NCBI RefSeq assembly: GCF_013343005.1
Contig: NZ_CP054491.1
Location: 372,001-436,000, forward strand
Origin: Candidatus Reidiella endopervernicosa
GTDB lineage: Bacteria; Pseudomonadota; Gammaproteobacteria; GCF-013343005
DNA: 64,000 nucleotides
Direction of reading: 5' to 3'
The position numbers and the translations under genes were made by a program. Below are positions 21,890 to 31,118 of this stretch, in pieces. Under the pieces are notes generated by a model. That model had not been told where the DNA came from. It saw nothing but the letters and a program-made list of their open reading frames with translations, and made no database searches. Each line of letters starts with the position of its first letter. Position 1 is the first letter of the stretch.

Positions 21890-25576
<3,687 letters not shown>

Positions 25577-25844
25577 TGCTCTAACCGAATCTATATATAA
25601 GGAGGCGGCGATATTAACACGGGCCGCCTATCATAACGTACGTTTTAAGCGCATTTACGCCCATAAACCCTATGTTTTGTGCTTTATCGCGCCCGTAAGC
25701 GACGGCCATACTGCATTTACACCTCCCCCGGCTCAAGCCAGCCATACCATCACAAAATCAGATCATGCGGCTCAGTCAATTCGACTATCAGCAACTACAC
25801 TCTGCTTTAACAACAAGCGGTTCCATGGAGCGAGCGACAATAAG

Positions 25845-26989
25845 ATGGAAGAGAGGGTCATCTATCAGCACAGCGATCTGCTCAGTGCGCTGGGCGAGCG
25901 CCTCTCGCCGAGCGAGAAGCTCGATTTCATCTACCAGCAGGTCAAACGAGCCCACCCCTTTGTCGATCGCATCGCCGTCGCGCTCTACGATGCCCAGAGC
26001 GACATCGTTAAGACCTTCATCCGCTGTCCAGGCGAGGACTCCCCCATCTCCTTCTACCAGGCGCGCCTGAGCGATACGAAATCGCTGCTGGAGATCGTGC
26101 GTTCGGGGCAGTCGCGGGTGATTGCCAACATGCCCATCGCACTGCACGACAGTGACAAGCTCCACAGCAAGAAGCTGGCGCAGCACGGCTTTCGCTCCAG
26201 CTACACCAAGCCGATGTACCTCGACGGCAACTTCTTCGGCTTCATCTTCGTCAACTCGCGCCAGAGCGACTGCTTCAGCGACGAGGTACTCAATCTCATC
26301 GACCCGCTGCTGCAGCTGCTCTCCTTGTCGATCAACCATGTGGCACGCTCAATCGACACCCTGATCGCCGCTGTCCGCACCACCCAGTCAATCACCCACC
26401 ACCGAGACCCCGAGACCGGCAGCCATCTGGAGCGGATGGCGCGCTACTCACGCCTGATCGCCCAGACCATTGCACCCAGATATGGTCTCGATGATGAGTT
26501 TGTCGAATATATCTTCCAGTTCGCACCGACCCACGACATCGGCAAGATCGCCATCCCCGATGCGATTCTGCTCAAACCCGGCAAACTCTCCGATGAGGAG
26601 TTTGAGCAGATGAAGCACCACACTGAGAAGGGGCTGGAGATGATCGAGATGATCGTCAATAACTTCGATGCCGCCGAACTCCCCTACATCGAGATGCTTA
26701 AGAACATCGCCATCTGCCACCACGAGGCGTACGACGGCAGCGGCTACCCGCGCGGTCTGGTCGGCGAGAAGATTCCCCTCGAGGCGCGCATCATCTCCGT
26801 CGCCGATGTCTTTGATGCGCTCACCAGCCACCGCCCCTACAAAAAGCGTGGAGCGTGGAGCAGGCAATGGCCGAACTGGCGGCCAACAGCGGCATCAAAT
26901 ACTGCCCGGAGTCGGTCGCCGCCCTCGCCTCGCGCCTCGACGAGGTCGTGACGATTCGCAACACCTTCACCGATGAGAGCATGATCTAG
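25845..26989 (+). CDS. GAF and HD-GYP cyclic di-GMP phosphodiesterase (frameshift near end)
   Basis: Starting at MEERVIYQHSD, residues ~20-170 form a GAF-like sensory domain (VDRIAVALYDAQSDIVKTF...GNFFGFIFVNS). The HD-GYP domain follows with HRDPETGSHLERMARYS, the HD pair in THDIGKIAIPD, and HHEAYDGSGYPRGL containing the GYP motif. Such enzymes hydrolyse cyclic di-GMP to pGpG or GMP. A one-base break near 26850, after RPYKK, must be corrected to reach the true end (EQAMAELAANSG...TFTDESMI). It runs divergently from metH. Confidence 0.85.
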
Positions 26990-26994
26990 CGGCG

Positions 26995-28017: not shown

Positions 28018-29197
28018 CCTCTCTCTCCCTGATAACCTGCTCTACCGCCCTTTCCAACCGTGCCACCATCTCGCCAATCTCCTGCGCGCTGACGTTCAGC
28101 GGCGGCATAAAACGGAGCGTATCGGTGCGTGGCGCATTGACCAGCAGACCACCTTCAAATGCCGCAGCAGCTATCTCCACCGCCGATAACGGACCGCTGT
28201 CGAGCGCCAGCAGCAGCCCCCGACCACGCACGCCTCCCAGGCCATATTTTTTCGCCAATCCCTCAAGTGCATCGACCAGCTGAGCGCTACACTGTTCGAC
28301 GGTTGCGAGAAACTGCGTACTGGTCACCGCCTCAAACACCGCACATCCGGCTGCGCACATCACCGGATTGCCGTTGAAGGTGCCCCCCTGATCTCCCGGC
28401 TCGAAGCAGCTCACCGCATGCGTTGCCACCAACGCGGCAAGCGGCACACCACCACCCGGCCCCTTGCCGAGAGTGATGATGTCGGGCTCGATGCCGTAGT
28501 AGTTAAAAGCGAATAGCTGGCCGGTCCGGGCGATGCCGGTCTGGATCTCATCAATAATCAGCAGGCAGTTGTTGGTACTGGTCAACTCACGCAGTTGCTG
28601 TACAAAGTCGAGATCAGCGGGTATCACGCCCGCTTCACCCTGAATAAGCTCCAGCATCACTGCCACAGTCTGCTCACCGATCACGGCCTCTACTGCACCG
28701 ATATCGTTAAACGGCACCTTGATGAAACCGGGAACCTTCGGTTCAAAAAGAAGTTCGAATTGCGGCTTACCGCTGGCCGACATCGTTGCGAGCGTGCGGC
28801 CGTGAAATCCGTTCTGCATGGTGACGATCTCGAAGGCACCGTTTTTCTGTTTTGTGCCCCACTTACGTGCCAGCTTGATCGCACCTTCGTTCGCCTCGGC
28901 ACCGCTGTTGGCGAAGAAGACCTCATCGAGACCACTGTGGGCGGTGATCTGATCAGCCAGTGCCACCATCGGTTCATTGTAGAAGGCAGGTCCGATATTC
29001 ATCAGACGCCCCGCCTGCTCTGCGATCGCATCGACAACGACCTTTGGCGAGTGGCCTAGCGTGTTGACTGCCCATCCCTGCATGAAGTCGAGATAGCGTC
29101 GGCCCATCTCGTCCATCAGCCACACGCCCTTACCCTCAACAAAGCGGGTCTCGGGCCGGTTGGTAATCGGCATGATTGAACTGAAACGGGTATTCAT
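28010..29197 (-). CDS. argD: Acetylornithine aminotransferase family protein
   Basis: A 396-residue class III PLP aminotransferase. Conserved features are [29 protein letters not shown], the [12 protein letters not shown] segment with the Asp that contacts the PLP nitrogen, and the Schiff-base Lys in [15 protein letters not shown]. It matches ArgD in length and motifs; ArgD converts N-acetylornithine and 2-oxoglutarate to the semialdehyde and glutamate in arginine synthesis. Related omega-transaminases cannot be excluded. The start at 29197 is chosen over 29266 because AAGGAGAG lies just upstream. Confidence 0.85.
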
Positions 29198-29232
29198 CAC
29201 TTCTCTCCTTTTTGTCGTTACGTTGGTAATGC

Positions 29233-29318
29233 GTAGGGTGGGTTGAGTTTTAACGAAACCCAACAAATGTCAGCGTTCTTCGCCATTGGTGGGTATCGCT
29301 TTGCTCAACCCACCCTAC
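29233..29318. repeat. Palindromic repeat (GTAGGGTGGGTTGAG type)
   Basis: Inverted repeat with 15-bp perfect arms GTAGGGTGGGTTGAG (29233-29247) and CTCAACCCACCCTAC (29304-29318), with AACCCAACA and GGTGGGTAT in between. Related units are common in gammaproteobacterial intergenic regions. Confidence 0.85.
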
Positions 29319-29406
29319 TGTTCCTGCCCTAACCAGGGCTTCGATGATCAAGCAGGCCGCTCCTGCGCATCCCTGCGCCCGCGGCATACCGCCCATCCCT
29401 GGGCAT

Positions 29407-29442
29407 AAAAAAGGCCGCAGATCTCTCGGATCTGCGGCCTTT
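29407..29442 (-). terminator. Rho-independent terminator for the 51-codon minus-strand ORF
   Basis: An 11-bp perfect stem GGCCGCAGATC / GATCTGCGGCC (29413-29423 and 29429-29439) with loop TCTCG. Six A on the left side give a six-T tail on the minus strand, so it terminates leftward transcription. Confidence 0.85.
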
Positions 29443-29480
29443 GGATTTCCTGCTTAGCTGTCAGCTAATTTGCGCTAACG

Positions 29481-29636
29481 CTACCCCTTCCCCAATACAC
29501 ACAGAACCGTGTTCACGCCGCGTAGTCGCAGCATGAAACGCATTCGTAGTGCCATGGGTTTGAGGTTGTTCATGGCTGCAGTCTGCAGAACTTCACCGCA
29601 GCGTGTCAACCGATCAATAAAACTTATCTCTCTCAT
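29481..29636 (-). CDS. Small basic protein, 51 residues, unknown
   Basis: The minus strand has ATG at 29636 with GGGGAGG three bases upstream, reading MREISFIDRLTRCGEVLQTA, then MNNLKPMALRMRFMLRLRG and ending CVLGKG at 29481. It is followed 38 bases later by a perfect terminator and faces a divergent small gene at 29705. The protein is basic and partly amphipathic. No family is recognised. The strong ribosome site and its own terminator are the evidence that it is expressed. Confidence 0.45.
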   Translation of the reverse strand: MREISFIDRLTRCGEVLQTAAMNNLKPMALRMRFMLRLRGVNTVLCVLGKG

Positions 29637-29704
29637 GACCTCCCCATATTACCAACCAATCTACTAAGCTATTGCTAGTAGCAACCCGGATGGGAGGATT
29701 GGTG

Positions 29705-29929
29705 ATGACGACTGAAATCCTGATGCATATTGATGAAGATCTATCTGATCAGCAACAGAAAGATCTGCTCGCTTCGTTTGGTAATCGTACTGGTGGACTG
29801 CAGCCTCACCTGCACAGTGAAAAGGCGCACCTGATGTTTGTTGCCTACGATCCAGAGGAGCTCTGCCCCCACGACCTGATAGCTATTGCAGCCGAGTCTG
29901 GTGTACACGCTTCATTGATCGAGCTTTAA
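29705..29929 (+). CDS. Conserved-looking small protein, 74 residues, unknown
   Basis: Begins MTTEILMHIDEDLSDQQQKDL and has HSEKAHLMFVAYDPE and LIAIAAESGVHASLIEL. The start at 29705 is chosen because GGGAGG sits about seven bases before it. The beta-alpha-beta pattern resembles small ferredoxin-like folds such as heavy-metal-associated domains, but the CxxC metal site is absent. A hairpin terminator follows. Confidence 0.6.
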   Translation: MTTEILMHIDEDLSDQQQKDLLASFGNRTGGLQPHLHSEKAHLMFVAYDPEELCPHDLIAIAAESGVHASLIEL

Positions 29930-30587: not shown

Positions 30588-31118
30588 TCATCCCTTCTCC
30601 AGAATCTCACCATCGCTATAGACGTAGCTCAGTAGCGAGGCCCCTGGGCAATGCTCAACAGATGTAACGCCTGATCTCGGCTCTGCTCTGCGTAACCCAT
30701 CTCTCTAAATTGCTTCTCCAGCCAGTCGGCAAACAGGGTGAAAATCTCAGCGGCATGCTGCTTTGAACCCGCCTCCGCCTTACCAGCTCGACATTGAGTG
30801 ATCCCATTGGGCAGCCGTACTGAACGATGCCTTCAAGCTCACTAATGGGAATCTGCACAAAACGGTGCAGGCGTAGTTTCGATACTGGAAACCACTCTCC
30901 CAGGAGGCGAGCATGGTCTTCGTCTGTGCGAGTCGATCATCTATTACCGAGGCCAACAGCTCATCCTTGCTCTTGAAGTAGTAGTAGAAGTTGCCCTTCG
31001 GGATTCCAGACTTCTCTGCCACCTCAGCAAATGAGGTCTGGTTAAAACCCTTGTGGTAGAAGAGCTCATTGGCTGCCTCTACGATACGTTGTCGGTTGGC
31101 CTGCCCTTTCTCTTTCAT
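30588..31118 (-). CDS. TetR/AcrR family repressor (frameshifted)
   Basis: The N-terminus from 31118 is a classic TetR DNA-binding domain (RQRIVEAANELFYHKGFNQTSFAEVAEKSGIPKGNFYYYFKSKDEL). The frame breaks near 30890, continues as IPISELEGIVQYGCPMGSLNVEL, and breaks again to reach FADWLEKQF and the end SYVYSDGEILEKG at 30588. Corrected length is about 177 residues. It lies directly downstream of tusA-dsrE2 on the same strand, so it could control that operon, which is only a positional inference. Confidence 0.75.

Follow-up and report, generated by a model that had tools for sequence, protein, structure and literature searches.

A candidate small RNA with its own terminator in Candidatus Reidiella endopervernicosa

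Locus and neighboring genes

The genome of Candidatus Reidiella endopervernicosa is a single contig of 3.45 Mb and is the sole member of its family and order among the genomes compared. The window is the whole 64,000 nt stretch of this contig that was analyzed, and all positions below are positions in the window. A first-pass annotation drew attention to a minus-strand open reading frame of 51 codons, with ATG at 29636 and stop at 29481, which was taken as a small gene with a strong ribosome site and its own terminator, or else as the trace of a small RNA. The open reading frame is found in the sequence at these coordinates, and GGGGAGG is present upstream of the ATG as described. The locus displays the following features.

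29705–29929, plus strand: gene of 74 aa, divergent neighbor of the 51-codon open reading frame
29646–29654, minus strand: extended −10-like box TGGTAATAT, 6 bases above the proposed RNA start
29639–29645, minus strand: GGGGAGG, SD-like, 2 bases from the ATG; probably the spacer between promoter and RNA start
29481–29636, minus strand: open reading frame of 51 codons (ATG 29636–29634, stop ending at 29481), probably no gene
29403–29640, minus strand: candidate small RNA of ~235 nt, with start (~29640) and end (~29404) proposed from the box, the fold and the terminator
29612–29640, minus strand: predicted hairpin 1, which holds the AUG of the open reading frame
29574–29611, minus strand: predicted hairpin 2
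29483–29566, minus strand: predicted central long hairpin of 33 pairs (z = −5.0; plus strand, −1.7)
29456–29482, minus strand: predicted hairpin 4
29443–29455, minus strand: open stretch AAGCAGGAAATCC preceding the terminator
29407–29442, minus strand: intrinsic terminator, with a 14-pair stem at 29410–29442 and T6 at 29412–29407
29356–29405, minus strand: two small hairpins with CAGGGATG in the loop, directly behind the terminator
29231–29318: long palindrome, ends carrying GTAGGGTGGGTT, between the terminator and the aminotransferase gene
29197 (ATG), minus strand: class-III aminotransferase, acetylornithine-type, the next gene downstream and on the same strand as the open reading frame

The 74 aa protein shows no Pfam or NCBIfam match (E = 1) but is matched in 23 of 143 genomes, its own included, and in two named MAG contigs; by these sequence matches it is a conserved small family without a name.

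Two of the listed features recur in the genome. Parts of the 29231–29318 palindrome are found at approximately six other sites. The 29356–29405 stretch is found again at G000:C1:1034434-1034535, in two copies of which the nearer lies directly behind another terminator-like stem, and at G000:C1:1440344-1440398. The CAGGGATG loop resembles the CsrA-binding consensus.

Elsewhere in the window, a TetR-type regulator (30655–31118) is apparently broken: a 112 aa open reading frame holds the N-terminal domain, and by eye a piece resembling the C-terminal part is in another frame at 30655–30858. An HD-GYP-like open reading frame (25557–26951) also seems to switch frame close to its end (26820–26990). 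The expected tail sits, by eye, in the open reading frame 26855–26989, which would represent a frameshift or a sequencing error.

The 51-codon open reading frame

The predicted product is basic, with seven R and two K against three D/E by an eye count, and belongs to no known family (no Pfam and no NCBIfam match), both as first described. Its length is of the order expected by chance. When the 262 bases before the terminator are shuffled 3000 times, open reading frames of at least 51 codons appear in 15.7% of the shuffles if any start is allowed and in 7.4% if ATG is the first codon. The codon score is −0.07; a value this low is seen in only 2.8% of real coding pieces of the same length, and one this high in 21% of off-frame pieces, in a model built from 160 long open reading frames in 456 kb of the source genome, which is a weak test at 51 codons.

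A search of 143 related genomes with the protein sequence (E = 0.01) showed two hits, the source genome itself and G025. The G025 match (E = 0.002) carries an internal stop codon and overlaps a 315 aa open reading frame that by eye resembles a LuxR-type regulator, and it is therefore taken as chance. No match to the product was found in the plasmids or phages searched. A pattern scan of GTDB contigs, which can pick up close relatives alone and may omit the nearest records, gave none either. The three loci that bear the closest relatives of the 74 aa gene also give no significant match to the open reading frame. Thus the search in relatives that had been suggested as a check yields no convincing relative of the open reading frame among the 143 genomes.

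The SD-like sequence is strong in pairing and poorly placed. With respect to duplex energy, the open reading frame is the only one of 454 small ATG-first open reading frames (40–60 aa, itself counted) to reach its value. The aligned distance from GGGGAGG to the ATG is 10, whereas 35 of the 67 scored starts of long open reading frames lie at 13–16 and only four of the 67 at 10 or less. E. coli data put the optimum at an aligned distance of ~14, and there the AUG of AUGUG was without activity when a strong SD lay at distance 10 (PMC9841429). Since that assay set the AUG against a second start codon, a lone AUG may still be used weakly. The SD is not at a working distance from the start codon of this open reading frame. 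In addition, for each of three assumed transcript starts the AUG is predicted to be mostly base-paired.

The proposal of a gene for a basic peptide of 51 aa, equipped with a ribosome site and a terminator of its own, draws on an intact open reading frame, the strongest SD pairing of its set and a terminator that begins 38 bases past the stop. It is nevertheless very improbable in view of the failure to find homologues, the poor codon usage, the misplaced SD and the mostly paired AUG. Of the packaging that had been called unusual, the terminator is indeed beyond chance and the SD pairing is strong, but the length of the open reading frame is chance-like and the spacing is bad.

A possible sigma-54 promoter inside the open reading frame (TGGCACTACGAATGC, 29540–29554) was also considered. 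This pattern occurs twice in the window, where 0.76 occurrences are expected, and 20 of 100 shuffles give as many. The fuller consensus with two mismatches is found 30 times against 34.7 expected, and the candidate was dropped.

The terminator and the downstream gene

The 11 bp stem and T6 tail first described after the stop are both present (GGCCGCAGATC/GATCTGCGGCC), and the stem reaches 14 pairs with the flanking A-T pairs. An 81 nt segment covering it (29400–29480) folds with z = −5.8, a value equaled in none of 200 shuffles. A simple terminator scan gave four matches in the window against 3.5 expected, and this terminator was absent from them, perhaps because three of its T residues were counted as stem.

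The terminator is not explained by a neighboring gene, as the upstream neighbor is the divergent 74 aa gene. Such orphans make up 12 of 40 strong sites in a sample of the genome, i.e. sites with no same-strand gene ending within 150 bases; the count relied on a rough gene calling with 443 genes at 83% coverage, and the set takes in both strands of the present terminator palindrome. The use of orphan terminators as a guide to small RNA genes is established practice (PMC2573895). Alone, an orphan terminator is modest evidence.

The position of the terminator also suggests a regulatory 5′ leader, an attenuator in which it would gate transcription into the aminotransferase operon that starts at 29197. 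The enzyme gene is the next gene on the same strand, and its ATG lies 209 bases beyond the T tail. Until the 3′ arm of the terminator is transcribed, most of the 5′ arm is predicted to pair with upstream sequence, which offers a possible competitor. In being terminator-ended and upstream of an amino acid enzyme gene, the locus is similar to amino acid operon leaders. However, all four of the closest relatives inspected (L058–L061) are without a strong terminator before the enzyme gene, and lax settings in L059 and L060 give only weak hairpins with four T residues. Elements repeated in the genome sit between the terminator and the aminotransferase gene, and the finished terminator coexists with the other hairpins, so that no clear switch is seen. 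A leader is thus judged distinctly unlikely here. The match to Trp_leader (RF00513) has 15.4 bits where the gathering score is 41, and that to Thr_leader (RF00506) has 15.1 bits where it is 55; the locus is a member of neither. A broader proposal, in which the locus would represent a new structured regulatory RNA family of an isolated gammaproteobacterial order, a leader or small RNA tied to the aminotransferase operon and controlling amino acid metabolism, is highly doubtful.

Strand-specific folding

Without the terminator, the minus strand from 29640 to 29445 has a predicted folding energy of −76.4 kcal/mol. Four runs gave z = −5.4 (200 shuffles), −5.2 (100), −4.5 (300) and −5.1 (1000) for the minus strand of 29445–29640 and −0.1, −0.4, −0.2 and −0.3 (the last with 1000 shuffles) for the plus strand. 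With the terminator included (29400–29640), the minus strand reaches z = −7.6. Of the 65 predicted pairs, 11 are G-U pairs, formable on one strand only. Folding energies of an RNA and its complement differ enough to help in assigning the strand (PMC1892782).

The background consisted of 672 intergenic windows, unscreened for terminators; four that overlap the gap 29205–29704 were left out, leaving 668. The difference in z between strands for 29445–29640 is 4.77 (1000 shuffles), which is above that of all 668 background windows. The largest background difference was 4.73 in a first pass with 30 shuffles, and when the top 12 windows were redone with 400 shuffles the differences were at most 4.42 and 4.36. 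The limits of the segment were set to match the proposed RNA, and the difference is sensitive to them: moved by 17 bases (29462–29657), the segment shows 3.68, a value reached or exceeded by five of the 12 redone windows.

Of 1336 background strand tests, 25 reach z = −4.5, so that strong folding by itself would place a strand in the top 2%. On the better strand this value is reached by 17 of the 668 windows, and in none of the 17 does the other strand lie above −1. In a first sample of 260 of the 672 windows the contrast had looked stronger than it did over the whole set; none of the 60 coding windows tested with that sample reached z = −4.

A remnant without function, either a decayed palindrome or an insertion by a terminator that is now ownerless, would account for the failure to find conservation and would suit a place with two kinds of repeats within the next 200 bases, in a genome where orphan terminators are as frequent as in the sample above. 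On the other hand, the stretch is single-copy in its own genome, and folding here is confined to one strand. The 17 background windows that fold best all do so on both strands to a certain extent. A remnant is considered unlikely.

Searches for relatives of the RNA

At the DNA level, 14 of 143 genomes show matches, the source genome counted. The source genome matches the query over its full length and G142 matches it over 30 bases (query positions 50–79); all other matches lie at query positions 274–320, which correspond to the terminator and its edge.

A covariance model of a 126 nt core, built from two copies of one window sequence, was searched against 369 genomes of the class (E = 0.1) and matched the source genome and four others. 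Matches L108 and L110 lie inside coding-like open reading frames and were rejected, L109 gives an alignment identical to that of L108, and L111 (21.6 bits) covers positions 18–71 only. Foreign matches score 36 bits and less, close to the 31 bits reached by the plus strand of the window itself, so that scores of this size can come from any long hairpin. The candidate RNA thus has no convincing homologue in the 369 class genomes, and the model, run with no positive control, finds nothing at E = 10 in the three nearest genomes tested. This absence is weak evidence, because only one genome of the order was compared.

No Rfam family matches the window at its gathering cut-off and only weak matches are found. 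One of these, STnc40 (RF02057), covers 29408–29484 on the minus strand and so mostly the terminator; its 23.1 bits fall well short of the gathering score (45), and membership was rejected. Topic searches of the literature showed nothing on this locus.

Interpretation

The suggestion that the open reading frame could be the trace of a small RNA receives moderate support from the one-strand fold, the orphan terminator and a well-placed promoter-like box. The candidate is thus a small RNA of ~235 nt that would probably act with Hfq on mRNAs from elsewhere, a reading to which we assign a probability of roughly 0.5; the figure would have been ~0.6 before the full census of 668 windows.

Beyond the computed one-strand fold, orphan terminator and hfq gene, we infer a promoter, transcription, Hfq binding and a target. 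Transcription would start on the minus strand at ~29640, from a promoter adjoining the divergent promoter of the 74 aa gene. This start is proposed because TGGTAATAT reads as an extended −10 and 29640 is the first base of hairpin 1; GGGGAGG would then be untranscribed, lying between box and start. The box is promoter-like by its sequence. No good −35 accompanies it and a promoter scan gave no match here. The pattern TGNTAWWWT occurs six times on both strands of the 64 kb window against 6.4 expected from shuffles, and TGNTAATAT occurs twice against 0.85 expected.

The RNA would fold into a row of hairpins, end at the intrinsic terminator at ~29404 and base-pair, most likely with Hfq, with mRNAs transcribed elsewhere. 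The genome carries an hfq gene (102.9 bits) and shows no ProQ domain (E = 0.001). The predicted hairpins, the open stretch 29455–29443 and the U-run terminator fit an Hfq-type RNA. The neighboring genes are not indicated as targets, as the open loops pair more weakly there than with most of 317 genes: 97.8% of these pair at least as well as the aminotransferase start region and 87.4% at least as well as that of the 74 aa gene.

Small folded RNAs of this kind are common. Like the Hfq-dependent small RNAs of Gammaproteobacteria, the candidate is intergenic, with hairpins, its own U-run terminator and hfq in the genome. Unlike them, it showed no relative in sequence or structure in the searches above. 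It would be an ordinary kind of small RNA, lineage-specific as far as visible.

With the small RNA as the preferred reading, the 51-codon open reading frame is probably a by-product of the RNA gene. If transcribed, the locus would be an RNA gene that mimics a small-protein gene, its SD-like string a promoter spacer, and gene callers that score an open reading frame together with an SD and a terminator would be misled by it. It would also add a candidate small RNA from a lineage of which few relatives have been sequenced.
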